Below, one piece after another: positions 1 to 12,306 of a stretch of 64,000 bases of DNA (positions are counted from its first letter, which is position 1; each line of letters opens with the position of its first letter). Below the pieces are notes generated by a model. The model was not told where the DNA came from. It saw nothing but the letters and a program-made list of their open reading frames with translations, and did no database searches. Source of the stretch: Bacteroidia bacterium (GTDB lineage: Bacteria; Bacteroidota; Bacteroidia; SpSt-205); contig BPGV01000001.1 in assembly GCA_026003215.1 (NCBI GenBank), positions 709,570-773,569 of the forward strand, read 5' to 3'. A program made the position numbers and the translations under genes.

Positions 1-796
1 TATTGGTTGCTCGTAAAGCTGGATACGCCCTTGTACCCGACGATGCGGATGTCATCGACGGCGAAGGAGGGAGTCTGATGCCATCAGCCGCCTCCCCCTT
101 GCCCTACTCTGCGCCAGACGGAAAGGCTATCCGGAACTGCGTGCTGGTCATAGGACAGCTGGTCGGCAGGCACGCCACCGCAGCCGAGTCCACCGCCCTT
201 GCGGGCTACACGGACGCAGTAGTTGTTCAGTAGCCAACTGGTTCATCGTATTAGCCTGGCAGTAGTGGAGGGCTCCCAAGCCACCACCCATGGCTGGTCC
301 GTAGGAGTAGATCCCAGTGTTGCGCCCCCGTCCGTGGACTGTATTCGGAAGCGCCATAATGCTAAAAAGGAGCCACTCAGGTCTCCACCATCCTTGCCCA
401 ATCATAGGTCAAACTGCACGACCACCGAGTCGTACGGATGCAAAGCGGCCCGGCCGGCAACGTTGATATCTTGGTCATGAGGTAGATGCGCTTGTGCGTT
501 GAATAGTCAAAACCGAGCCCCGTCGGGTCATCATAGCATGCGCCCGAGACCACTATCCAGCCGCTACGAACACAGCTGCCAGTTGCTCCCATCAGTACAG
601 ACCACAGTGTAGGCTCTTATCTGTCCCCCCACTTGTGCCACAACCGCAGTTAGGCGGCGTTACTCCTGCTTCTAACGGAGTAATGTGCCATCTATCCGCC
701 AGTGAGCTAATACCGACAAAGCATTAGGAACCTGATCGCCTGGTAGCCCAAACTGGGTACTCTCCAGCCGCAGCTTGTGAGACGACCCCAGTTGAG
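1..796 (-). pseudogene. Frameshifted 3' continuation of the PKD secreted protein
   Basis: No long ORF exists here, yet the minus strand carries pieces that continue the protein of 797-2281 in different frames. At about 404-454 one frame reads GRAALHPYDSVVVQFDL; at about 317-337 another reads STDGGAT; at about 135-150 FRIAF; and at about 3-68 SFAVDDIRIVGYKG. These follow the same order as blocks in the intact N-terminal domain of the same protein (STDGGTTW, LRIAF, VDNIRI), so this was a second copy of that domain. Several indels and stop codons separate the pieces. Either the gene has decayed or the sequence is poor at what may be a contig end; the window alone cannot tell. The true 3' end lies beyond base 1. 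Confidence 0.72.
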
Positions 797-2281
797 CTAA
801 TAAGTCGTACGTCGGCGCATCGCGTCAAAGTTCTGCGTATAGAATACGGTACTATCCACTGCGGCGGAGGCGCTCCCCCCGCAAGCGCAGGAGGCTGCGG
901 AGACGATTTGGCTGGTGGAGCTGGTGCCATCGGGCGTCTGCACCGTAAGGGTAATGGTGTAAGTGCCCGGCGTACTGAAGGTGACGGTGACGGGATTGGC
1001 GCTATTATTGGGCGAAAAAGTGACGCCTGCGGCGGGGGAGGCGGACCAGGTACGAGCGGTGAGGGGCTGTCCTTGGAGGTTACTTACATCTGTGAGGGTA
1101 ATCGTGGTAGGACTACCTGCGGGCGGGGTAGGACTGAGTGCACATACCCCTTTCGGCGTAGCATTGAAAGCGGCTTGGGGGGGACACGCTTGCACGGTGA
1201 TATAGGCGGTTTTGGTTTCTACATCGGTACCTGCGGCATTGGTGGCGGTGAGCTGCACCGTGTAGGTGCCGTTTGCAGTAAAGGTAACTTGGGGATTTGG
1301 ACTCGTAGCGCTGGTTCCCCCCGTGAAGCTCCAGCCTGTAGAGGGGGTGATTTGCCAGTTATATGAAGTGGGGAGGTTACAGGGGATTTGGGTAAGGTTC
1401 GTGAAGGTGACGGGTTGGTTTTTACAGACGGTGGTGGCGCTGGCGGTAAAGTCTGCGGTAGGCGGGGCCGCCGCCTCAATCCGAATATTATCTACGTTGA
1501 AGCCCGCGCTAAGGGTATAGTCGGCCGTGGTCATGGGGAGGCTGTTTTCGTTCCGCCAGCGGAAGGCAATACGGAGGTTCGGAATATTTTCGGCGCTGGC
1601 CGGGAGATTGAAGGTCAGCCGGATCCAGTTATTGCAGGTGCCGGCAGCGAAGTGATAAGCAAGCCAAACCGGCGTGGGAATGGTCTGCTGGATGTTGGGC
1701 ACAAGTACTTGCCAGGTGGTGCCGCCGTCGGTGCTATATAAAATAGAGGCATAGCTGCGCACACGGTCCCGGTCGCCCCCGAGGTAGAAGTCGGCCACGA
1801 GCCGTAGGCAAGTGCGGCCCGTGGTATTGATATTTTGGGTGAGGAAAGCGGTCTGGTCGGTATTGGCGTCGGCTCCGAAGCCTTGGTTAGACCAGGAGTA
1901 CTCATCGCCGTAGTCGGGGAGGTTCACGTAGCCGAGGACGGCCCCATCGCTATTGGCTCGGGCGGTGATGTGTAGGCTCCGGTTGACGGGACCGCCGTCG
2001 GTATAGGGGTTGGGGAGGTTGTTTGGGGCACTGCATTCGGCGCGATGCCCTCGGACGAAGTTACCGGAGCCGTCCAGCTCAGGGGTATTGGCGTCGTTGA
2101 TGACGAAGTAGTTATAGGCAGGGTCGTTCGTAACATAGGCGAGCGGTAGGCCGGCCGGCGTAGGACTGAAGGTCCAGCGCGCAGTAGCTCCGGCATCATC
2201 AAAGGTTTCTTTCCAGACCAGTACTTGGGCCATCCCCAACGAAAGCAAGCCAAGGAATATACGGGCACTTACGAGCCGCAT
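797..2281 (-). CDS. Secreted PKD-domain protein, 5' intact part of a broken gene
   Basis: The 494-aa reading frame begins with a signal peptide (MRLVSARIFLGLLSLGMAQ). An N-terminal domain of about 250 residues follows; it resembles MAM/jelly-roll-like adhesion domains and carries STDGGTTW, LRIAF and VDNIRI blocks. Two PKD-like domains then span roughly 275-365 and 366-465, each with the typical NGTYTVQLT or PGTYTITLT strand. The protein is probably exported and cell-surface or extracellular, perhaps a T9SS client whose sorting domain lies outside the window. The frame stops at 797 only because the coding sequence shifts; after VFYTQNFDAM a second copy of the N-terminal domain begins and is broken. 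Start ATG 2281 is fixed by the TACCTTTG box four bases upstream. No enzymatic motif is seen. Confidence 0.7.
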   Translation of the reverse strand: MRLVSARIFLGLLSLGMAQVLVWKETFDDAGATARWTFSPTPAGLPLAYVTNDPAYNYFVINDANTPELDGSGNFVRGHRAECSAPNNLPNPYTDGGPVNRSLHITARANSDGAVLGYVNLPDYGDEYSWSNQGFGADANTDQTAFLTQNINTTGRTCLRLVADFYLGGDRDRVRSYASILYSTDGGTTWQVLVPNIQQTIPTPVWLAYHFAAGTCNNWIRLTFNLPASAENIPNLRIAFRWRNENSLPMTTADYTLSAGFNVDNIRIEAAAPPTADFTASATTVCKNQPVTFTNLTQIPCNLPTSYNWQITPSTGWSFTGGTSATSPNPQVTFTANGTYTVQLTATNAAGTDVETKTAYITVQACPPQAAFNATPKGVCALSPTPPAGSPTTITLTDVSNLQGQPLTARTWSASPAAGVTFSPNNSANPVTVTFSTPGTYTITLTVQTPDGTSSTSQIVSAASCACGGSASAAVDSTVFYTQNFDAMRRRTTY

Positions 2282-2285
2282 AAGA

Positions 2286-2293
2286 CAAAGGTA
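2286..2293 (-). promoter_or_regulatory. -7 promoter element TACCTTTG for the PKD protein gene
   Basis: The Bacteroidota consensus TAnnTTTG ends 4 nt before the ATG at 2281, so the message would begin at or near the start codon. Confidence 0.7.
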
Positions 2294-2384
2294 AGGTAGA
2301 AAGTTGGATTTTACAAATCCATCATAGATAAGTAGCCAAGCATGGAGAGAAGGGTTAGGACGGCGGGTAGGGTCAAATGGATAA

Positions 2385-2419
2385 GGGGGCGGCTCACGCC
2401 TGCGGCGTGAGCCGCCCCC
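2385..2419 (-). terminator. 35-nt perfect hairpin after the PP2C gene
   Basis: A 16-bp perfect stem, GGGGGCGGCTCACGCC against its complement, closes a 3-nt loop. It starts 22 bp beyond the minus-strand stop at 2442 and is followed on that strand by TTATCC, so it most likely ends the FHA-PP2C operon. It has the same build as the hairpin at 20061-20095. Confidence 0.7.
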
Positions 2420-2441
2420 ATCGCCATAAAAACGTTCAACC

Positions 2442-3557
2442 CTACTCCCGAACTGTATCTCTGGCCGGAGGAACCTCCAGCGTATCTACACGCACAGAAC
2501 CCTTGGGGAGGGTATCTTTTTTCGGAGAGGGTTTAGGCTGAGAGCGCCGGACTGAAGGAGAGGCAGACGATGAAAAACGAACTTCCTCCGCAGGGGAAAT
2601 ATCCTCTATGGGAGCAGGCCCTTTGGGAGAAGGGTTAGCAACCGAGGAGTCCTGTCGAAGTAAGGTATCCCGCGGAAGGGGAAGGACAGACACCGAGGGC
2701 ATCCCCACTACAATATGCATGGCCCATCCCGCCAAGAACCCTGCCAAGATTAGGAGAATTCCTGCCAGTATGACCTTAGGGGTAGGGAGGGACGGCTCAA
2801 GCTTAGCTCCAGCACGCTCACAAGCAACCAGCACTGCCGTGATATTATCGTATCCTCCGGCATCTAATGCGGATTGGATGAGCAAACGCACCTTATCCGC
2901 CAGGGGCTTTCTTTCGGCAAGCCGTTGCCTAATCTCTTCTTCGGGCACCAACCCACTCAGGCCATCGGAACATAGCAGGAAAAGGTCATTTTTTTGCACA
3001 GGAAGGGGGAAGGTAGAAGCTTCTACCAGGGTAAAGCTTTGGGTAACTCCTAAGGAAAAAAGGAGCTGGTTACTCTGGGGGTGACCAAAGGCTGCCTCCG
3101 GAGAGATATGACCAGTATCCACCAGTAGCGAGACATAACTATGGTCATGGGTGAGCTGATAGAGGGTGCCTTCACGCAGGAGGTATAGGCGGGAGTCCCC
3201 CGTATGGGCCCACCAGGCTTCTCCGGCGGGAGTAAGGAGGAGGACTACAGCTGTGGTGCCCATGGACGGAGCCCCGTAGTGGCCATGGCCTGCCTGGAAA
3301 ATAGCCGCATGGGCATAGTGCAAAGCCCGACGCAACCAATACGATGGCTTATAGCGCTTATCGGCCCCAGCTAAAAACGCCTTTATGCGTTCCACCGCTA
3401 TTTGAGCGGCGATATCGCCAGCAGCATGGCCTCCCATCCCATCGCACACCACAAAGACTTCCCCCAGCGCACAAGAAAATACCGCATAACTATCTTCATT
3501 ATGGGCGCGGTGGTGCCCTACATGGCTCTCCGCCGCGTAGGAATACAGCTTGGTCAT
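2442..3557 (-). CDS. Membrane-anchored PP2C-family protein phosphatase
   Basis: This 371-aa protein is a metal-dependent Ser/Thr phosphatase of the PPM/PP2C family. The canonical motifs are in order: HRAHNEDS near the N-terminus, CDGMGGHAAGD (metal-binding Asp), WAHTGDSRLYL, CSDGLSG and GGYDNITAVLV. The catalytic domain covers about residues 1-250. One transmembrane helix follows (about 263-286, ILAGILLILAGFLAGW), then a Ser/Pro-rich tail of about 85 residues, which would place the catalytic domain in the cytoplasm. Its start overlaps the stop of the upstream vWA-FHA gene by 4 bp, so the two are translationally linked. It would remove phosphates from the phosphothreonine sites that the neighbouring FHA domains read; no kinase gene is in this window. 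Confidence 0.93.
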   Translation of the reverse strand: MTKLYSYAAESHVGHHRAHNEDSYAVFSCALGEVFVVCDGMGGHAAGDIAAQIAVERIKAFLAGADKRYKPSYWLRRALHYAHAAIFQAGHGHYGAPSMGTTAVVLLLTPAGEAWWAHTGDSRLYLLREGTLYQLTHDHSYVSLLVDTGHISPEAAFGHPQSNQLLFSLGVTQSFTLVEASTFPLPVQKNDLFLLCSDGLSGLVPEEEIRQRLAERKPLADKVRLLIQSALDAGGYDNITAVLVACERAGAKLEPSLPTPKVILAGILLILAGFLAGWAMHIVVGMPSVSVLPLPRDTLLRQDSSVANPSPKGPAPIEDISPAEEVRFSSSASPSVRRSQPKPSPKKDTLPKGSVRVDTLEVPPARDTVRE

Positions 3558-4723
3558 CCTACCACCTGCACAATAATAGCTCCCAATCGTATTTTATCGC
3601 CTGTCCGAATAGGATATTGGGTGATTCGCTGCTCATTCACAAAAGTTCCGTTGGTACTGCCTAAATCTTGCACATACCACTGGGAACCTTGCAGGAAGAG
3701 GCGCGCATGTCTGGATGAGACCGTAGGGTCTTGTATCACGAGGGTATTATCTGGCGCGCGCCCTATCGTAATAGGAGCTGTGGAAGGAGAGAGACGGACT
3801 TCCTGCTGCGTATGCGGGTAAAAAACCACGAATCGGCTGAGGGTAAGCGCAGGTGGAGCGGGGGGAGGCGGCGGCGCACTCGTCGGGACAGAAGCTGGAG
3901 CAGCATCTGCGGTCGTCTGCGCAGCCTGAGTCTTCTTTCCTCCGCTAAATAGCCATAGGGCCCCTAAAAGCAACACCGCCCCTCCCACAAACCATACCCA
4001 TATAGGGATCTCTTCCTGAGCGGTAGACTTAGCGGGCTCAGGGGTAACCGAATCCTCCTTCTGAACGGCAGCCTTGCCCTCCTTAGGAGAAGCCTCAGAA
4101 ACCCCATTCTGCAAAGCCTCCTGCCAAACCCGCAGCACAAATGCACGCAACGGCCCTAACGACTCAGACGGCCGAGAAGGGTCGGCTAAAAAATACTGTT
4201 TTTTCCCTTCATATACCCCGACTAACTCCTTAAGGGAGCCCTGTACCTCTGTGTTATTTGTAAGCCATCCGACAGATACGATGTAGAGCGTACTCCCTTG
4301 GTTTTCCGCCAAACGGCGAATCTCTTGGAGAGAGGGCTTATTCCCGGTTTGGCGCCCCGAAGCAAATACTAAAACAGGGACGCCTTCATAGCGCTGAATA
4401 GCTTCTTCTATGGCAGAGAGCAGATGAACCGTATGGATAGAGTCGCATACAGACCGAATGTTTCTCACGAGTGTTTGGCAGGTGCCAATTTCAGCAAGGG
4501 GTACGGTGGGAGTAGTAAGCCAAGAAATGGTTCGGCCCCCCCGTATGCGGGAAAAAGTACCGATGGCTACAGCTCCTTGTTCCTGGCCACATAAAGCGGC
4601 GAGGGCCGAACGGGCCAACTCCACCGGTTGCCCACAGGTAAGGTGACTGGTTTCTACAAGTACCACCAAATCCGGGCGGGTTTGCGCCCACAGCCACACT
4701 ATGCTCAGCAGTAGCCACCGCAT
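3554..4723 (-). CDS. vWA-like / transmembrane / FHA signalling protein
   Basis: The 389-aa protein has a short signal peptide (MRWLLLSIVWLWAQ), a von Willebrand A-like domain (about 18-200), one transmembrane helix (about 239-259), a Pro/Ala linker and a C-terminal FHA domain (about 318-389). The FHA hallmarks are clear: TIGRAPDN, SSRHA and GSTNGTFVN. The vWA metal site is degenerate (VETSHL instead of DxSxS), so metal binding is doubtful. The inferred topology puts the vWA-like part outside the membrane and the phosphothreonine-reading FHA part in the cytoplasm. A KTQ site just after the helix matches the repeated KTQ/RTQ sites of the upstream gene. It lies 3 bp after the 4727-5263 gene and overlaps the phosphatase gene, so it is the middle gene of an operon. 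Confidence 0.85.
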   Translation of the reverse strand: MRWLLLSIVWLWAQTRPDLVVLVETSHLTCGQPVELARSALAALCGQEQGAVAIGTFSRIRGGRTISWLTTPTVPLAEIGTCQTLVRNIRSVCDSIHTVHLLSAIEEAIQRYEGVPVLVFASGRQTGNKPSLQEIRRLAENQGSTLYIVSVGWLTNNTEVQGSLKELVGVYEGKKQYFLADPSRPSESLGPLRAFVLRVWQEALQNGVSEASPKEGKAAVQKEDSVTPEPAKSTAQEEIPIWVWFVGGAVLLLGALWLFSGGKKTQAAQTTADAAPASVPTSAPPPPPAPPALTLSRFVVFYPHTQQEVRLSPSTAPITIGRAPDNTLVIQDPTVSSRHARLFLQGSQWYVQDLGSTNGTFVNEQRITQYPIRTGDKIRLGAIIVQVVG

Positions 4724-4726
4724 AGA

Positions 4727-5263
4727 TTACACCGTTCGAAAACGCAGTTCCGTCTCTCCAATGCGTAAAGTGTCGCCATCCTTCAGCTCGCCTTCGTTGA
4801 CCATCTGCCCGTTGAGGAAGGTGCCATTCGTAGAAAGCTCATCCCGAAAAAGAAACTGCCCTGCTCGGTACAAAATAGTAAGGTGATGCGCTGAAACGCC
4901 AGGGTCATTCAAAACGATATCCATATTTGGGCCAGAGCCTATGAGATTGCGCCCCTCGTATAAGCGGAAATCCACGCCATTCGGGTGCAAGGTAAAGCTC
5001 ACGAGCCATCCCACCAGCTTACGATTCTGGGGGGCCTGCCGGGCAGCCGGGGAAACCCCATGCCCTTGATATACCTGCGTACGCAGCGGGTCAAAGCCCC
5101 CTCCTTGTGGGTTCATGCCCCCCATGACTTGGGTCTTCTTAGGGTCAAAGTCCCCCCCCCCTGAGGAAGGAGAAGGCGTCGGCCCCATAAACTGCGTACG
5201 TTGCAGGTCACCCCCCGCCGGAGAAAAAGGCTGCGTCTTATTCGGGTCAAAATCCCCGCTCAT
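4727..5263 (-). CDS. FHA-domain protein with four N-terminal K/R-T-Q repeats
   Basis: The 178-aa soluble protein has a glycine-rich N-terminal half and a C-terminal FHA domain (about 95-178; LIGSGPNMD, VSAHHL, STNGTFLNG, DGDTLRIG). The N-terminal half repeats a short module around FDPxKTQ: Thr10 (KTQP), Thr23 (RTQF), Thr44 (KTQV) and Thr62 (RTQV). In known FHA regulators such as GarA, an N-terminal phosphothreonine is bound by an FHA domain; by analogy these four threonines are likely kinase targets and FHA ligands. That role is inference. It is the first gene of the operon with the vWA-FHA protein and PP2C phosphatase. The ATG at 5263 is supported by TAGGTTTG four bases upstream. Confidence 0.88.
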   Translation of the reverse strand: MSGDFDPNKTQPFSPAGGDLQRTQFMGPTPSPSSGGGDFDPKKTQVMGGMNPQGGGFDPLRTQVYQGHGVSPAARQAPQNRKLVGWLVSFTLHPNGVDFRLYEGRNLIGSGPNMDIVLNDPGVSAHHLTILYRAGQFLFRDELSTNGTFLNGQMVNEGELKDGDTLRIGETELRFRTV

Positions 5264-5267
5264 AATG

Positions 5268-5275
5268 CAAACCTA
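5268..5275 (-). promoter_or_regulatory. -7 element TAGGTTTG for the FHA/PP2C operon
   Basis: The TAnnTTTG box ends 4 nt before the ATG at 5263. The divergent cusA-like box lies about 40 bp away. Confidence 0.65.
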
Positions 5276-5315
5276 CGGAATATTTTGTGTAGAGGCCTCC
5301 TCTTTTGAAACACGT

Positions 5316-5323
5316 TACCTTTG
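5316..5323 (+). promoter_or_regulatory. -7 element TACCTTTG for the CzcA/CusA pump
   Basis: The box lies inside the longer reading frame given by the ORF track and 5 nt before an internal ATG at 5329. It argues that translation starts at 5329 rather than 5305. Confidence 0.65.
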
Positions 5324-5328
5324 ACCCC

Positions 5329-8300
5329 ATGTGGGAGAGGCTCCTGCGGCTGAGTGTCCGTTCTACCCCTTTTAGCTTAGGAACTTTGCTCATACTGCTC
5401 CTTATAGGGTTGTACGGTGTGCTCCATGTGCAGATTGATGCAGTACCTGACATTACCAACAACCAAGTCCAAGTGTATGCCTACGCCCCGGGCTACTCAG
5501 CCGCCGAAGTAGAGCTTTTAGTCACCCGCCCCTTAGAAGCAGCCCTGGCCACTGTGCCCGAAAGAATAGAGTGGCGTTCTATCTCGCGGATGGGGCTATG
5601 TGTGATCACGATAGTTTTTGGCGATGAAGTGGATATCCACCGGGCCCGCGCCCAGATTTTAGAGCGGTTATTCGCTGTGCAGAATCAGCTCCCGCCGGGG
5701 GTTCAGCCAGAGATAGGGCCTCTCAGTACAGGACTAAGCGAGGCTTTTCAATATACCCTCAAGCCAGCGGTACCTGTCTCTCTGATGGAGCTGAGGGCTA
5801 TCCAAGACTGGCTTGTACGGCGGGCGCTTTTAGAGACCCCCGGGGTGGCAGACATTAGTAGTTTTGGCGGGTATGTTCGCCGCTGGGAAATCCATCTCAG
5901 ACTCGAAGCCCTAGCCCGCTACCAGCTCACCCTTACCGATATAGAAACAGCCCTGCAAACCGCCAATCAGCTGATTGGCGGCGGGTACATAGAAAAAAGC
6001 GCCGGCACCTTAGCGCTACGAGCAGAGGGGCTTTGGCGTTCACCCCAAGATATCTTGGAGACCGTAGTGGCAGAACGCAACGGCCGGCCCATCCGTATCG
6101 CAGACCTCGGTACCGTGGAAGAGGGGTATTTGCCTCGCTACGGAGCCCTCCTGCGCGACACCACCGGCGAAGCCGTAGGCGGAATCGTCCTCGTACGCAA
6201 AGGCGAAAATACCGCCGAAGTCGTACGCCGTCTCAAAGAAAAAATCGCCACCTTAGAACCGACCCTGCCCTACGGCATCCGAATACAACCTTTTTTAGAC
6301 CGAGAAGACCTGATTACACGGCTTCTCCATACCGTCACGGCCAACCTTGCCAAAGCCGCCCTTATTGTGATTGCATTGCTGACATTTCTTTTAGGGAGCT
6401 GGCGGGCCGGCCTGGTCGTAGGGGCTGTCATACCCCTGGCTATGGCGTTTGCGCTGGGTCTTATGAGCCTCACTGGCGTCTCAGCCAACCTCATGAGCTT
6501 AGGCGCGATTGACTTTGGCTTGATTGTAGATGGAACCGTCATCTTGGTAGAAGCCGTACTCGTGCGGCTCCCTTATATCCCTGACCGCCTCCAAGCCGCC
6601 GAAGAAGGTGCCATCCATATCCGCAAGGCCAGCCTCTTCGGCGAACTGGTGGTACTCTCCGTATATCTCCCCCTCCTGCTGCTGAGCGGTATTGAAGGGC
6701 GCATGTTTCGGCCAATGGTGCTCACGATGATGTTTGCCTTGCTGGGAGCGCTTATCCTTTCCTTGACTTTCGTCCCGTGGGCCAGCGCACGACTCCTGCG
6801 ACCCGGCACTTTCCCGCTCTCGGAACGGTTTACGGAGGCCCTACGCTTTAGGACAGCTCAGCTTTTCCGGTGGAGCGCGCAAAAACCCGTATGGGCTTTC
6901 TTAGGATGGGCAGCCCTGGTAGGTGGCGGCACCTGGGCCTTCTTTACTGCCGAAACGATATTCCTCCCTGAGCTGGATGAAGGCGCCTTTGCTGTAGAAA
7001 CACGCCTCCCCTTAGGCAGTACTCTCTCCCAAACCTTACATACCTGCAAAGAAATCCACCGTCTCCTCCTTGAGCATTTTCCCAAGAGCTTTTCCCAAGC
7101 CGTAGCCAAAATCGGCACCTCCGAAATACCCATGGACCCCATGTTTGTAGAAAGCGCCGACCTCATCCTCGTATGGCATCCCCAAAATCCCCTTCCTCGG
7201 CCAATTTTGGCGGATAGCCTCAAGGCTCTCATCCAAGCCCATCTACCCGGCGTTTTTATCGGTGTGCAACAGCCTATACAGATGCGGTTTAATGAACTTT
7301 TAGCAGGGGCGAGAACCGATATTCTTTTGCGTTTGATGGGGCCAGACTTAGACACACTGGCTGTATGGGGCGAAAGAATAGCCCACCTTTGTGAAGGGAT
7401 ACCGGGCGTGGCCGACCTGTCTCGGCCCCTCTTTTTTGGGGCACGTCAGCTTGTCATCCGCTGGAGGCCCGAAGCCCTCGCCTTTTATGGGGTGAGCTTA
7501 GCAGAAGCCCAACGCTGGGTACAAGCTTATCAAGCTGGCCTTCCTTTGCGCCCCCTGTATCAAGAAGCTCGGCGGGTGCCTACCGCACTACGCCTCGCTC
7601 AACAAAGCCTCCCCACCGATATAGCTCAACTGACCCTACCTACCCCAAAAAGTGGATGGGTACCCCTTGGTCAAGTGGCTACCCTCGCTTACGTCCCCGC
7701 TTATAACGAGATACCTCATGCCGAGAGCGAGCGTACCTACGCTATCGGGATAAATGTGCGCGGACGAGGGGCCGTCTCAGTAGTGCAGGATATTCAGAGA
7801 CGCTTAGCTACCCTAAGCCTCCCTTCGGGTTATCGCATCAGTTATGGCGGGCAGTGGACCCACTACCAAGCCGCCCGAGAACGACTCCTATGGGTAGTAC
7901 CCCTCACTATCGCCCTGATTGCCGCCCTCCTGTATGCCACCGTATCCCACACCGAAGCCCTGATTTTTATTCTGCTCATATCTCTATCGGCGCCTGCGGG
8001 GGGTATGCTGGCTCTTACCTTGCGGGGTATGCCCTTTAGCCTGTCGGCAGCTATCGGACTTATCAGCGTGTATGGGCTGGCTACCTTAAATGGTACCGTA
8101 CTGCTGAATCGCTTTTATGCATTGCGCCGCGCAGGATATGGCGCCCTGCGGAGCTTACGCTACGCCCTGGAGGAAAGAACCCGGCCTATCATCGCTACGA
8201 CCTTGGTAGCTGTGGCAGGGCTTTTCCCTATGGCCTTTTCTATGCAGGCTGGCGCCGAAGTCCAACGCCCCTTCGCTACCACTATCGTAGGTGGTCTCCT

Positions 8301-8430
8301 TTGCGGCGCTCTTTTTAACCTATGGCTCCTCCCCCTCCTCTACCTACCCCGAAGGAAATCTCAAAAATTAAGCCCGAGCAGTACACCTACTTCTGCTAAA
8401 TCTGCCCGTACCGACGCCCGATATATATAG
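5329..8430 (+). CDS. CzcA/CusA-family heavy-metal RND efflux pump
   Basis: The protein of about 1033 aa is a full-length inner-membrane RND transporter. TM1 is near the N-terminus (FSLGTLLILLLIGLYG), followed by the first porter domain, a block of helices with the proton-relay motif GAIDFGLIVDG, the second porter domain and a final helix block. The acidic D-FGLIVD motif and total length fit the CzcA/CusA (HME) branch, which exports divalent or monovalent metal ions together with a periplasmic adaptor and an outer-membrane channel. Neither partner gene is adjacent, so it must work with components encoded elsewhere. I start it at ATG 5329 because the promoter box overlaps the upstream alternative at 5305. 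The metal cannot be read from the sequence. Its 3' end overlaps the convergent 8361 gene by 70 bp. Confidence 0.92.
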   Translation: MWERLLRLSVRSTPFSLGTLLILLLIGLYGVLHVQIDAVPDITNNQVQVYAYAPGYSAAEVELLVTRPLEAALATVPERIEWRSISRMGLCVITIVFGDEVDIHRARAQILERLFAVQNQLPPGVQPEIGPLSTGLSEAFQYTLKPAVPVSLMELRAIQDWLVRRALLETPGVADISSFGGYVRRWEIHLRLEALARYQLTLTDIETALQTANQLIGGGYIEKSAGTLALRAEGLWRSPQDILETVVAERNGRPIRIADLGTVEEGYLPRYGALLRDTTGEAVGGIVLVRKGENTAEVVRRLKEKIATLEPTLPYGIRIQPFLDREDLITRLLHTVTANLAKAALIVIALLTFLLGSWRAGLVVGAVIPLAMAFALGLMSLTGVSANLMSLGAIDFGLIVDGTVILVEAVLVRLPYIPDRLQAAEEGAIHIRKASLFGELVVLSVYLPLLLLSGIEGRMFRPMVLTMMFALLGALILSLTFVPWASARLLRPGTFPLSERFTEALRFRTAQLFRWSAQKPVWAFLGWAALVGGGTWAFFTAETIFLPELDEGAFAVETRLPLGSTLSQTLHTCKEIHRLLLEHFPKSFSQAVAKIGTSEIPMDPMFVESADLILVWHPQNPLPRPILADSLKALIQAHLPGVFIGVQQPIQMRFNELLAGARTDILLRLMGPDLDTLAVWGERIAHLCEGIPGVADLSRPLFFGARQLVIRWRPEALAFYGVSLAEAQRWVQAYQAGLPLRPLYQEARRVPTALRLAQQSLPTDIAQLTLPTPKSGWVPLGQVATLAYVPAYNEIPHAESERTYAIGINVRGRGAVSVVQDIQRRLATLSLPSGYRISYGGQWTHYQAARERLLWVVPLTIALIAALLYATVSHTEALIFILLISLSAPAGGMLALTLRGMPFSLSAAIGLISVYGLATLNGTVLLNRFYALRRAGYGALRSLRYALEERTRPIIATTLVAVAGLFPMAFSMQAGAEVQRPFATTIVGGLLCGALFNLWLLPLLYLPRRKSQKLSPSSTPTSAKSARTDARYI

Positions 8431-9071
8431 GTCCAATCCGCCACAGAGAGTGTATATCGCTGCCGATTGAAGTCCTTTTGCCCAGAGGATGCCCCCGTAT
8501 AGAGAAAGGATATTCCCACAAAAAAATCATCCGTTAGGGAGAAGTTCATAATTAGACCTGTACTAATACCAGCTTGCACCGTAGAAAACTTAGGTTGGAC
8601 CCATGTCTGCGTGCTACTTTTTACGCCTTGGATCTCTGGCAAGGAGTAGATACCCAGCGCAAACTGTAAAGGCACATAAAAGCTAAGCCAATCCACATCT
8701 GTCATGCGAAGTCCTGTGACAAGACCTACGCCCACTGTGGTATGCGACAAGGTGGGATCTTTGGCAATAGAGACGGGCTCAGGGAAGAGGGCACCGCGCT
8801 TTCCTAAAGCTTTTGCATCTAAAGGTAGGAAGCTTTGGGAAAGCCGCAAGCTAATCCCTATGTAAGGTGCAATAAATGTATTCAGGTGTAGGCCTATGGC
8901 CGCTCCCTCACGAGCGTAGCCATGGGTAGGATAGGTAAAGCCCGTAGCGCTCGTAGGACCCGTAGGCGTAGCTACACCTACCGACAGGCCTAAAAAACTA
9001 TTGGGACTCTCTATTTGAGCCCATAACCTACTTACCCAAATAAGGGCTATTGCCCAGCGGACCTTTTTCAT
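8361..9071 (-). CDS. Outer-membrane beta-barrel protein (hypothetical)
   Basis: The protein of about 236 aa starts with a signal peptide (MKKVRWAIALIWVSRLWAQ) and continues as alternating hydrophobic/polar strands rich in Gly and aromatic residues. It ends in LGLNF, a C-terminal aromatic typical of BAM-inserted barrels. It resembles the broad PorT/outer-membrane beta-barrel class of Bacteroidota; no specific function can be assigned. The ORF track begins at a TTG (9080) that belongs to the promoter box TACCTTTG; the ATG at 9071, 6 nt downstream, is the better start. The last 70 bp lie antisense within the 3' end of the CzcA/CusA gene. Confidence 0.75.
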   Translation of the reverse strand: MKKVRWAIALIWVSRLWAQIESPNSFLGLSVGVATPTGPTSATGFTYPTHGYAREGAAIGLHLNTFIAPYIGISLRLSQSFLPLDAKALGKRGALFPEPVSIAKDPTLSHTTVGVGLVTGLRMTDVDWLSFYVPLQFALGIYSLPEIQGVKSSTQTWVQPKFSTVQAGISTGLIMNFSLTDDFFVGISFLYTGASSGQKDFNRQRYTLSVADWTYIYRASVRADLAEVGVLLGLNF

Positions 9072-9077
9072 ACACCG

Positions 9078-9085
9078 CAAAGGTA
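9078..9085 (-). promoter_or_regulatory. -7 element TACCTTTG for the beta-barrel gene
   Basis: The TAnnTTTG box ends 6 nt before the ATG at 9071 and shows that the upstream TTG start is wrong. Confidence 0.65.
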
Positions 9086-9104
9086 CGTAGAGATACTGCC
9101 TACC

Positions 9105-9812
9105 TTAAGGCGTAAATGCCATAAAGAGGCGGACGCTCCAGAAAGTAGGCCGCAGTAGGTAACTTCCCTGCTGCGTAGTCTCACTGCCATCTGGATAGCT
9201 ATGCTGGAGAGAATACGGGGCCGAATGACCCGCAAAAAAGGGCATACAAGGTCCTAATCCTACGAAAAATCCTTCTTGCGCCCAAAAAAACTTACGACTA
9301 AGAAAAAAACCTATCTCCCCTGCTAAAAAGGTATTAGAACCTAACCGCACCCGGTATACGGTTCCATCGCTCAGAGATACCTCCCGGAAAGGGTAAGTAA
9401 GCCCAAGGATATGCATAGAGATAGAACAAACCAGCTCCCAACGGTTTTTCTCCCAACGAAAAAGTACGCCCAGACCTGTATTCATCGTTTCCGGGGCTAA
9501 GGAAGGGCGCTTCCCTTGGGCTGCGAGCGTATCCCGCCCAAGCAGGTCTCGCCAGATAGCTGAGCTATTGACTTGCCATGAGATACCTCGGAAAAAGAAA
9601 AACCCGCCCAACCATCCTTTCTTATTATAGTAGGCTTTTCCCACAAAAATGCCTGGAGAAAAATAGGCATAGCCTGCTTGGGGAAAGGGGCGGCTGTGAT
9701 TAGCCCAGCTTTGACGAGGGATACACGCTTCTACCCCAAAAAGCCAAGGACGATAGGGCTTCTGGGCATGAAGTCCAAGAACTAAGCCCGCCAAGACAAT
9801 ACGACCTGCCAT
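9105..9812 (-). CDS. Predicted outer-membrane protein downstream of scpA
   Basis: The reading frame from ATG 9812 gives about 235 aa with a signal peptide (MAGRIVLAGLVLGLHAQ). Repeated aromatic, glycine-rich amphipathic strands follow (for example GIFVGKAYYNKKGWLGG), as expected for an outer-membrane barrel or barrel-like lipoprotein. I do not recognise a family. The ORF track extends to 9932, but that extension runs inside the scpA gene and has no signal peptide, so the later ATG is preferred. The gene overlaps the end of scpA by 31 bp and is probably cotranscribed with it. Confidence 0.65.
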   Translation of the reverse strand: MAGRIVLAGLVLGLHAQKPYRPWLFGVEACIPRQSWANHSRPFPQAGYAYFSPGIFVGKAYYNKKGWLGGFFFFRGISWQVNSSAIWRDLLGRDTLAAQGKRPSLAPETMNTGLGVLFRWEKNRWELVCSISMHILGLTYPFREVSLSDGTVYRVRLGSNTFLAGEIGFFLSRKFFWAQEGFFVGLGPCMPFFAGHSAPYSLQHSYPDGSETTQQGSYLLRPTFWSVRLFMAFTP

Positions 9813-10504
9813 GGGGTACTGATTTCCACGCCCACACGCCCCTCTTGTATCCATGCCAGGAGAAATAAAAAAGCCATCGCCCGGTATAAAGGGTGAGGCC
9901 GCAGCGTCTCCCATAGCTCTTGTAAGACCCACTGAACCCGCTCCAGAAACCGGTTTTGCAGTTCCTGCTCAACTTCTTCCGGCACAAAAGGCAAAGGGGC
10001 AACACGATGAACGGAGTGTCTTTTCCGCAAGCGTAAGAGCACTTCTTCGTAAGCGCGCACCAGCCGCATTTGGGTCAAACCGATGATGACCTTTTCGCCC
10101 TGCTCCTCCGGAGAGGCAGGCCGAGCCAGAAAATATTGGGCCCTCGCTATACGGCGCTCCCACTCAGCCAAAAGCGGCCCCTCTCTAAAAGCGGAGAAGC
10201 CCTGGCTCCCATTGGGGGCTTGATACGTTTCAGAGCCTTCCTCTGCCTGAGGTAGCTTCTCTCCATAGGGTAGTAAAGCAATCGCTTTTAAGCGCAAAAG
10301 ATGCGATAGAAAGACCAAAAGTTCCATACGCTCTTCCATAGAAAGGGCAGGTAGGAGCTTAGCCGAAGCATCTAATATTTCCCTCAGCGAAAGATCCATC
10401 CAACTAATGCGAGACTTTTGCGCAAAAAAGAGCAAAAGGTCATGGGGGCCTTCATAGAAGGGGCTTTCTATCCAGGCTTGTCCTTCCACCCAGGAGAGCC
10501 GCAT
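9782..10504 (-). CDS. scpA: Segregation and condensation protein A
   Basis: The 240-aa protein matches ScpA, the kleisin that bridges SMC heads in chromosome condensation. The best evidence is the conserved N-terminal motif YEGPHDLLLFF (family F-EGPLDLLL), the following helices with LLPALSMEERMELLVFLSHLLRLKA, and a winged-helix-like C-terminus (YRAMAFLFLLAWIQEGRV) that contacts the SMC head. The ORF track starts at a TTG that is part of the promoter box; ATG 10504 lies 4 nt after TACCTTTG. Neither smc nor scpB is in the window. Its promoter is back-to-back with that of yidC. Confidence 0.85.
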   Translation of the reverse strand: MRLSWVEGQAWIESPFYEGPHDLLLFFAQKSRISWMDLSLREILDASAKLLPALSMEERMELLVFLSHLLRLKAIALLPYGEKLPQAEEGSETYQAPNGSQGFSAFREGPLLAEWERRIARAQYFLARPASPEEQGEKVIIGLTQMRLVRAYEEVLLRLRKRHSVHRVAPLPFVPEEVEQELQNRFLERVQWVLQELWETLRPHPLYRAMAFLFLLAWIQEGRVGVEISTPWQVVLSWRA

Positions 10505-10508
10505 CAAG

Positions 10509-10516
10509 CAAAGGTA
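10509..10516 (-). promoter_or_regulatory. -7 element TACCTTTG for scpA
   Basis: It ends 4 nt before the scpA ATG. Only 10 bp separate it from the oppositely directed yidC box, so the two upstream promoter regions must overlap. Confidence 0.65.
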
Positions 10517-10526
10517 CAGGCTCTCC

Positions 10527-10534
10527 TATCTTTG
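10527..10534 (+). promoter_or_regulatory. -7 element TATCTTTG for yidC
   Basis: It ends 5 nt before the GTG at 10540. Together with the scpA box it forms a very compact divergent promoter. Confidence 0.65.
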
Positions 10535-10539
10535 CGGCC

Positions 10540-12306
10540 GTGTCTCGACAAACCTGGATAGGGCTATTTCTGATTACGCTCCTGATGTTTCTCTGGACGC
10601 TCTGGATAGCCCGCACAAGTCCCCCCACGCCCTCGCCTACCCCTGACACCCTTATCCAAAGGCCGCCAGTAAAAAAAGATTCACTTCTGGCGCCATCGGT
10701 CGCTTCCATAGACTCCACAAGGCAAGCCGAACGATTGGGCCCCTATTTTCCCTTTAGCCGAGGAACCGATAGCCTCATCACCATAGAAACCGCCTTCGCC
10801 CAATGGACCTTTAGCACCCAAGGCGCCCGAATAGTCCATCACGCCTTCAAGCGGTTTGTCCGCCCGGATAGCCTCCCCGTTTCTCTATGGGATACCTCCC
10901 AAAAAAGCGCTTTTCTCTTTGCCGAGGGAAGGTATATTCTTTCCTCCAACGATTTGTACTTTACGCCCTATTATTTGCCAAAAGGACCTATCCTCTCCGG
11001 AAAAGACAGCGTGGTTTTTCGGGTTACTTTGGCCCCCGACACCTTTATAGAAGTAAAGTACATTCTGCCCGCAGCAGACTATCGTCTCTACTGGCAGGTG
11101 CGCTTTGCCAACCTATCTCATCGCTTGCGCAATCCGTATATCCTGCATACGATTCACTACCAGACGCCCCAGACCGAAGCTTCGGCTGACCTTATGAAGC
11201 CACACTGTGCCCTATACTATCGCCAGGGCGAAGAGGCAGCAGCTATCCAGCCAGATGAGGATGAACCTGTAATCCAAGCCCTCCAGGGACGCATCCGCTG
11301 GGTCTCCGCAAAAGGTCAGTTTTTCTGCACGCTTTTTCAAGGAGAAAACGAGTTTTCCGCCGTAGATTTACAAAGTAAGCCTTTTACACACTTGCCTCTA
11401 TATGAGATACAACTTCAAGTGCCCCTATCTCAAGGCATCGCTACAGAAACATGGTACTTTGGGCCTACCCGCTACACCCTCTTGCGTTCCTATGGGGAAA
11501 TGTATGAAAAACAGCTCAACTTAGGCTGGGGCTTTATTCGGTACATCAACACGGGCTTCATTATTCCTGTTTTTGCTTTTTTGGAGAGGTTTATTAGTTC
11601 GTATGGCATCATTATCACGATTTTAGCCCTACTGGTCAAAATCATCCTATCACCGCTCACCTGGCGGAGCTATCTCCTGGGCGTGCGCATGCAAGTGATA
11701 AGTGAGCTGCCCGAAGTAAAAGCCTTAGAAGAGAAATACAAAGGCCAGCCAGATAAGCTAATGATAGAACGCAGCCTCCTCTACCAGCAACTCGGGATCA
11801 ACCCTTTGAGTGGATGTGTGCCGCTCCTTCTACAGATACCCATCTTTTTTGCAATGACCAGCTTTTTTCCTACGGCTTTTGAGCTTCGCCAAAAAGCTTT
11901 TCTCTGGGCTAAAGACCTCTCTTCATACGATTCAGTGCTACACTGGGGCTTTTCTATTCCGATTTTAGGGGATCATCTAAGCCTTTTTGCTCTGCTGACC
12001 GCTTTATCGCTTTTTGCTTATACTTACTTCACCCAACAAGGGCAAGCCGCAGCTAATCCCTCGCTCAAGTGGCTACCCTATATCAGTCCTGTGATATTCT
12101 TTTTGTTTTTGAATAACTACTCGGCGGCACTAAGCTGGTATTATTTCGTACTCAACCTCCTGACAGTAGGGCAAACACTGCTAATGCGGCGATTTATTGA
12201 CAAAGAAGCGCTTGTGCGGAAGATTAGAGAAGTCCAGCGCAAAAAGCAAAGCAAGGCCCAGGTAGCCATGCAACGCCAACGCCTACGGAAATGGTTCAAA
12301 AAGTAA
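10540..12306 (+). CDS. yidC: Membrane protein insertase YidC
   Basis: The 588-aa protein is a full-length Gram-negative YidC. TM1 lies at the very N-terminus (GLFLITLLMFLWTLWIART), a large periplasmic P1 beta-sandwich covers about 50-330, and the conserved Oxa1/YidC insertase core of five helices follows (YGIIITILALLVKIILSPLT, LSGCVPLLLQIPIFFAM, then three more). The C-terminal tail is strongly basic, suiting ribosome contact. YidC inserts membrane proteins alone or with SecYEG and SecDF, both of which are also encoded in this window. Translation starts at GTG 10540, 5 nt after the -7 box. The downstream TPR gene overlaps it by 16 bp. Confidence 0.97.
   Translation: MSRQTWIGLFLITLLMFLWTLWIARTSPPTPSPTPDTLIQRPPVKKDSLLAPSVASIDSTRQAERLGPYFPFSRGTDSLITIETAFAQWTFSTQGARIVHHAFKRFVRPDSLPVSLWDTSQKSAFLFAEGRYILSSNDLYFTPYYLPKGPILSGKDSVVFRVTLAPDTFIEVKYILPAADYRLYWQVRFANLSHRLRNPYILHTIHYQTPQTEASADLMKPHCALYYRQGEEAAAIQPDEDEPVIQALQGRIRWVSAKGQFFCTLFQGENEFSAVDLQSKPFTHLPLYEIQLQVPLSQGIATETWYFGPTRYTLLRSYGEMYEKQLNLGWGFIRYINTGFIIPVFAFLERFISSYGIIITILALLVKIILSPLTWRSYLLGVRMQVISELPEVKALEEKYKGQPDKLMIERSLLYQQLGINPLSGCVPLLLQIPIFFAMTSFFPTAFELRQKAFLWAKDLSSYDSVLHWGFSIPILGDHLSLFALLTALSLFAYTYFTQQGQAAANPSLKWLPYISPVIFFLFLNNYSAALSWYYFVLNLLTVGQTLLMRRFIDKEALVRKIREVQRKKQSKAQVAMQRQRLRKWFKK

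Follow-up and report, generated by a model that had tools for sequence, protein, structure and literature searches.

A recurrent FHA, vWA-FHA and PP2C gene set in Bacteroidota as a candidate membrane phosphothreonine module

Hanks kinases occur in many Bacteroidota, and to our knowledge few of their substrates and readers are known there. In the window, i.e. the whole 64,000-nucleotide stretch of Bacteroidia DNA analyzed here, ORF calling placed three minus-strand ORFs at 2442-5263 in the order FHA1, vWA-FHA and PP2C (Table 1). From the sequence alone, an earlier note had proposed that these genes are coupled and form a switch in which K/R-T-Q sites are phosphorylated, bound by FHA domains and reset by the phosphatase. 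The coupling was borne out, namely that FHA1 and vWA-FHA are separated by +3 bases and vWA-FHA and PP2C by −4 bases, so the three genes are tightly coupled. A TANNTTTG box, which we take to be the Bacteroidota −7 element, lies at −12 to −15 upstream of the FHA1 start in all eight family members (the window included).

Table 1. Coordinates of the operon genes and their features in the window
Feature	Coordinates	Strand	Basis and remarks
FHA1	4727..5263	(-)	178 aa; disordered tail 1-83, then FHA domain; ORF, Pfam, AlphaFold, eight family members
vWA-TM-FHA protein	3554..4723	(-)	389 aa; ORF, Pfam, alignment, AlphaFold/Foldseek
PP2C phosphatase, C-terminal transmembrane helix	2442..3557	(-)	371 aa; Pfam PP2C_2 3.5e-16
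Promoter, putative -7 box TAGGTTTG	5268..5275	(-)	12 bases upstream of FHA1 start codon
FHA1 repeat 1, FDPNKTQ (Thr10)	5231..5251	(-)	motif scan, family alignment
FHA1 repeat 2, DLQRTQ (Thr23)	5192..5209	(-)	sequence, family alignment
FHA1 repeat 3, FDPKKTQ (Thr44)	5129..5149	(-)	Thr in 16/16 homologues, seven families
FHA1 repeat 4, FDPLRTQ (Thr62)	5075..5095	(-)	Thr in 8/8 family members
FHA domain of FHA1	4757..4945	(-)	IGS: pThr-binding Arg replaced (Ser110); Ser/His/Asn kept
Predicted exported vWA domain, degenerate MIDAS (ETS), conserved cysteines	4094..4672	(-)	AlphaFold, Foldseek, alignment, orthologue Pfam VWA
Transmembrane helix of vWA-FHA, residues 242-260	3944..4000	(-)	AlphaFold model, hydropathy
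Canonical FHA domain of vWA-FHA (IGR...SSRH...STNG), predicted cytoplasmic	3581..3772	(-)	Pfam 1e-23; invariant in 7/7 family members
PP2C transmembrane segment (approximate)	2703..2772	(-)	sequence reading of VILAGILLILAGFLAGWAMHIVV

Divergent from FHA1, a CzcA/CusA-type RND pump gene (5305-8430, plus strand) adjoins the operon in four relatives (G001, G002, G003 and G009) and a lone PP2C gene in G006; as a conserved neighbour, it could share regulation with the operon. A secreted PKD-domain protein is encoded at 797-2281 on the minus strand, with its reading frame stopping abruptly near 797, and positions 1-800 hold no long ORF, which may reflect a frameshift or a sequence error. An Rfam search of window positions 1-12000 matched no RNA element. 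A defence system was rejected, as PADLOC left FHA1 and vWA-FHA unmatched and otherwise gave generic matches to kinase or PP2C.

Recurrence of the gene set across Bacteroidota

The family comparison comprised 11 relatives, ten of the same genus and one of the same family. Synteny, by which the earlier note had wanted the operon judged, was kept in all six family relatives that were readable through, and a seventh relative (G001) carries FHA1 at a contig end. A signature of FHA1, RTQ[VI]YQGPG, had suggested a family-specific system, being present in 8 of 395 genomes apart from an unrelated match in G097, but profile searches found a wider family. FHA1 homologues are in 16 of the 395 Bacteroidia genomes, distributed over seven families, and nine additional genomes from other parts of the phylum carry them too. 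FHA1, vWA-FHA and PP2C are adjacent in that order in f1 (the window's family), f5, f18, f37, f39, f101 and f107; one or more kinase genes lie inside the cluster in f5, f18, f37, f39 and f101, and the clusters of f5, f18, f37 and f39 also hold an FHA-FHA-ABC transporter gene. This double-FHA transporter (L142, L178, L179 and L180) resembles mycobacterial Rv1747 and is a possible output of the module.

The composition of the set varied, in that FHA1 and vWA-FHA occur without PP2C in f15, FHA1 stands alone in f49 with a vWA-FHA-like gene elsewhere in the genome (G059), and FHA1 accompanies PP2C with no adjacent vWA-FHA recognized in G500 and f84. Thus, as f49 and f84 indicate, the vWA protein does not always belong to the set. 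In f84, FHA1 lies amid arrays of several similar Hanks kinases, FHA proteins and PP2Cs (L200, L202 and L206). A PknB-like kinase (E<1e-50) was found in 7 of 8 FHA1-bearing versus 0 of 22 FHA1-free Bacteroidia of a hand-picked sample. The window operon has no kinase beside it, though an in-cluster kinase is common, if not universal, in the module. In addition, every non-f1 FHA1 homologue that was read begins with a zinc ribbon, which is missing in f1 including the window. With zinc ribbons and in-cluster kinases found elsewhere, the window version is a reduced form, in which the zinc ribbon was lost, the repeats expanded and the kinase presumably moved out.

FHA1, the vWA-FHA protein and the phosphatase

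The FHA1 tail (AlphaFold pLDDT about 36, in a whole model of low confidence with a mean pLDDT of 58) precedes an FHA domain recognized by Pfam (E 3e-17). All four K/R-T-Q sites that had been read at Thr10, 23, 44 and 62 are in the sequence; none of 200,000 shuffled versions of the 78-residue tail reached that number, and all three FDPxxTQ occurrences in the genome, a single contig of 2.27 Mb, are in FHA1. Conservation of the repeat threonines, the further check that had been proposed, was found for Thr62 within the family and for Thr44 well beyond it (Table 1). Members of f1 carry two to six K/R-T sites in the tail and conserve the wider FDPxxTQ unit beyond the threonine; outside f1 the repeat flanks differ and K/R-T-x-[I/V] is retained, which the window version has as well, and more distant homologues bear KTVI/RTVI-type sites.

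Canonical FHA domains contact phosphothreonine through G, R, S, H and N residues (PMC5549992). At the arginine position, FHA1 has Ser or Thr (IGS/IGT) in 8/8 family members; by inspection, the arginine is also absent in f15, f49, f84 and f107 and present in f5, f18, f37, f39 and f101. A relocation of the arginine, with EGR gained as IGR was lost, was dropped because f101 has both. In vWA-FHA, by contrast, 7/7 family members retain all five pocket residues, and single vWA-FHA members of eight other families also show the IGR/S/H/NG signature. With the arginine lost in the one and the pocket intact in the other, the reader in the window is most likely the FHA domain of vWA-FHA and the substrate FHA1, so that the idea of two reading FHA domains was not supported. 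The arginine-less domain of FHA1 is proposed as the obvious candidate for an output surface.

The vWA-FHA protein begins with a signal peptide, followed by the vWA part, the membrane helix and the FHA domain. Pfam detected no vWA domain in the window protein, and the assignment was upheld by three lines: the vWA part of the AlphaFold model has pLDDT mostly 80-95, Foldseek aligned it with I domains of integrin CD11b at a TM by target of about 0.67, and the orthologues of f101 and f107 match Pfam VWA with E values of about 1e-15 to 1e-16. In other orthologues this match was marginal (f18 and f37) or not significant (f5 and f39); orthology there is supported by the shared position, the membrane helix and an FHA domain at the C-terminus. 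These data agree with the earlier picture of an exported vWA domain joined through the membrane to an inside FHA domain, and in the family alignment its MIDAS reads as degenerate (ETS instead of DxSxS). The KTQ site of the linker, to which that picture had also given weight, is present in the window and occurs in 0/6 family orthologues.

The PP2C protein scored 219 bits against the NCBIfam Stp1-type model, just below the cut-off of 230; its metal ligands are intact, and the catalytic Asp is invariant in the family alignment. A lone orthologous PP2C occupies the same site beside the RND gene in G006, which is without K3 (see below), FHA1 and vWA-FHA, and shares 51% identity with the window PP2C versus about 41% or less for paralogues. 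Remaining without K3, it would have other substrates or be decaying.

Two other readings of the repeats were weighed against these data. The phosphorylated tail could bind the FHA domain of FHA1 itself, by fold-back or in trans, and thereby switch the binding of a target enzyme, as in GarA/OdhI. That proteins of this kind have the same layout of N-terminal phospho-motif and C-terminal FHA domain, that GarA/OdhI and FhaA are among the best structural relatives of the FHA domains, and that DgcB offers a precedent all speak for it; but the FHA domain has Ser or Thr for the arginine throughout the family and is without it in f15, f49, f84 and f107, and GarA/OdhI have a single short site region versus the two to six sites here, so we consider this reading improbable. 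FHA1 was also not a member of the GarA/OdhI group itself, with IGS/IGT in 8/8 and an NCBIfam OdhI score of 36 bits versus a cut-off of 200. An equally improbable reading takes the repeats as linear motifs that another partner binds unphosphorylated, in which case the operon would encode an adaptor complex and PP2C would act on unrelated substrates. Conservation beyond the threonine suits it, and FHA domains with phospho-independent partners exist, as described for Afadin (PMC9355967); against this, it is the flanks that change outside f1 and K/R-T-x-[I/V] that stays, and PP2C and kinase genes travel with FHA1.

A candidate kinase and its co-loss with the operon

That no kinase is present locally, as first noted, is correct; the three Hanks kinases of the genome (K1, K2 and K3) lie elsewhere, K3 about 337 kb from the operon. 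A search for a co-occurring Ser/Thr kinase, which had been recommended, revealed that K3 tracks the operon (8/8 genomes with it versus 0/4 without). All 8 FHA1-bearing genomes have a member of the K3 family, which in G011 is a fragment at the end of a contig, and none is found in the congeners G004, G006, G008 and G010, all of which lack FHA1 and vWA-FHA; K1 and K2 are in all eleven genus genomes plus G011. Over these 12 related genomes, some of them incomplete, the co-occurrence had a Fisher p of 0.002 (0.018 for genomes at least 92% complete), a calculation that treats related genomes as independent. In a K1+K2 tree with some weak nodes, the group of G002, G003 and G005 took in G010 (support 100), that of G007 and G009 took in G008 (83), and G004 and G006 stood apart; such a scatter of operon-less genomes requires about three losses, and the tree gave no support to a single loss in one clade. 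Moreover, a ferredoxin-ABC-MATE block lies directly after the operon in G007 and next to K3 in G000 and G009 (66-86% identity), and this shared neighbour suggests that operon and K3 were formerly linked. The set recurs across Bacteroidota, usually beside a protein kinase, and in this lineage a distant kinase is kept or lost with it.

In a kinase-domain tree, K1, K2 and K3 were separate from the kinases inside the clusters of other families, so a descent of K3 from an old cluster kinase lacks support. K3 is tandemly duplicated in G009, G003 and G005 (L084, L085 and L086). Pfam found no PASTA domains in K3, and K1-K3 reached 283-321 bits against the NCBIfam PknB-PASTA kinase model (cut-off 450), so a PknB-PASTA kinase system was rejected.

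The kinase of the switch might instead be K2 or K1, general PknB-like enzymes, with the co-loss of K3 stemming from a shared niche. Both are in every genome, K2 adjoins a PP2C-LysM gene and has TQ sites, namely TQT within the K2 activation loop and NPALTQTQ within the linker, and the activation loop of K3 does not single it out as the kinase. We regard this as possible but on balance doubtful, since K3 matches FHA1 and vWA-FHA in its presence over about three losses and shows a trace of earlier linkage. Apart from this, NPALTQTQ recurs in the K2 linker of several genus members, and the PP2C-LysM gene overlaps that of K2 (L002:101-3033) as a second kinase/phosphatase pair. A third FHA gene (L005:1300-1725, minus strand), flanked by rpoN-like and dnaA-like genes, encodes an FHA-TM protein of 141 aa and has relatives in most genus members.

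The proposed circuit and its known counterparts

The switch of phosphorylation, binding and reset is the best reading of the operon because of the synteny, the conserved threonines, the intact PP2C ligands and the co-occurring kinase, its original form having lost two parts, namely reading by both FHA domains and a conserved KTQ site in vWA-FHA. We favour, with some reserve, a reversible membrane phosphothreonine module with K3 as the best candidate kinase, for which we infer the following phosphorylation, docking, signal and output. A transmembrane Hanks kinase, K3 as the best candidate, would phosphorylate the threonines of the K/R-T-Q-[V/I/F] repeats in the FHA1 tail, and the canonical FHA domain of vWA-TM-FHA would bind them at the cytoplasmic face, several sites allowing a dose-dependent gathering of FHA1 at the membrane until the membrane PP2C strips the phosphates off. 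The periplasmic vWA domain may bind a protein or an envelope cue, by which it would adjust docking or clustering, and the FHA domain of FHA1, without its phosphothreonine arginine, may carry the output via a non-canonical surface. Considerably more tentative is the idea of a class of transmembrane receptors that couple a vWA sensor in the periplasm to a phosphothreonine reader in the cytoplasm. An outside cue would then set the clustering of a multi-site phospho-repeat scaffold at the membrane, the repeat number (two to six K/R-T sites in this family) would act as threshold, and the arginine-less FHA would have given up reading phosphothreonine to serve as an output domain.

For Hanks signalling in Bacteroidota, the module offers a conserved set of putative reader, substrate and eraser that seems not to have been described before, together with a kinase candidate chosen by co-loss and a concrete phospho-motif. 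Its one operon pairs an arginine-bearing with an arginine-less FHA domain, a natural contrast, and the phosphorylation circuit is testable with three or four purified proteins. The earlier note knew of no system with exactly this set; our literature search likewise found no description, with subscription papers outside its scope and novelty hence unproven, but the same order exists in six other Bacteroidota families and functional analogues exist.

PppA is the PP2C eraser of the T6SS threonine phosphorylation pathway, and in the TerY-P triad the vWA, PP2C and kinase genes are linked. The PpkA-Fha-PppA pathway resembles the module in that its kinase and FHA reader act on a threonine site (PMC3953482); no T6SS genes were seen next to the operon, and FHA1 and vWA-FHA scored 50 and 53 bits against NCBIfam TagH (cut-off 120). 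GAP1-N2 systems likewise have kinase-PP2C-vWA groups of linked genes (PMC7159879), but the vWA proteins of these and of TerY-P are stand-alone, without an FHA reader or TQ tail. The FHA1 motif K/R-T-x-[I/V]-hydrophobic resembles the tail of Bdellovibrio DgcB, crystallized as K-pT-S-I-V bound to an FHA domain (PMC6733907), although DgcB holds tail and FHA in one protein that controls a GGDEF enzyme.

Closest by gene set is the actinobacterial fhaA-fhaB-pstP-rodA-pbpA-pknA-pknB locus, where genes for a pair of FHA proteins and for a PP2C phosphatase stand together with those of Hanks kinases (PMC6554272). FhaB is the best NCBIfam match of vWA-FHA, at 97 bits below the membership cut-off of 125; that locus has no vWA domain and no TQ-repeat tail, but has a PASTA kinase and cell-wall genes, neither of which belongs to the window system. 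Closest by domain logic are archaeal ArnA/ArnB, a zinc-finger FHA protein and a vWA protein joined by phosphorylation (PMC6509490, PMC12852372), with ArnC as kinase and PP2A as phosphatase; ArnA is the best PDB sequence match of vWA-FHA (5e-15), and the non-f1 FHA1 homologues are zinc-ribboned as well. In Arn, however, it is the vWA protein that bears the sites, and its zinc-finger FHA partner is the reader, whereas here the vWA part is predicted to be exported, a membrane helix links it to the reader FHA, and FHA1 carries the conserved sites, which sets the module outside ArnA/ArnB. In its presumed mode of working, the module is akin to actinobacterial fhaA-fhaB-pstP-pknB and archaeal ArnA/ArnB, to neither of which it belongs.
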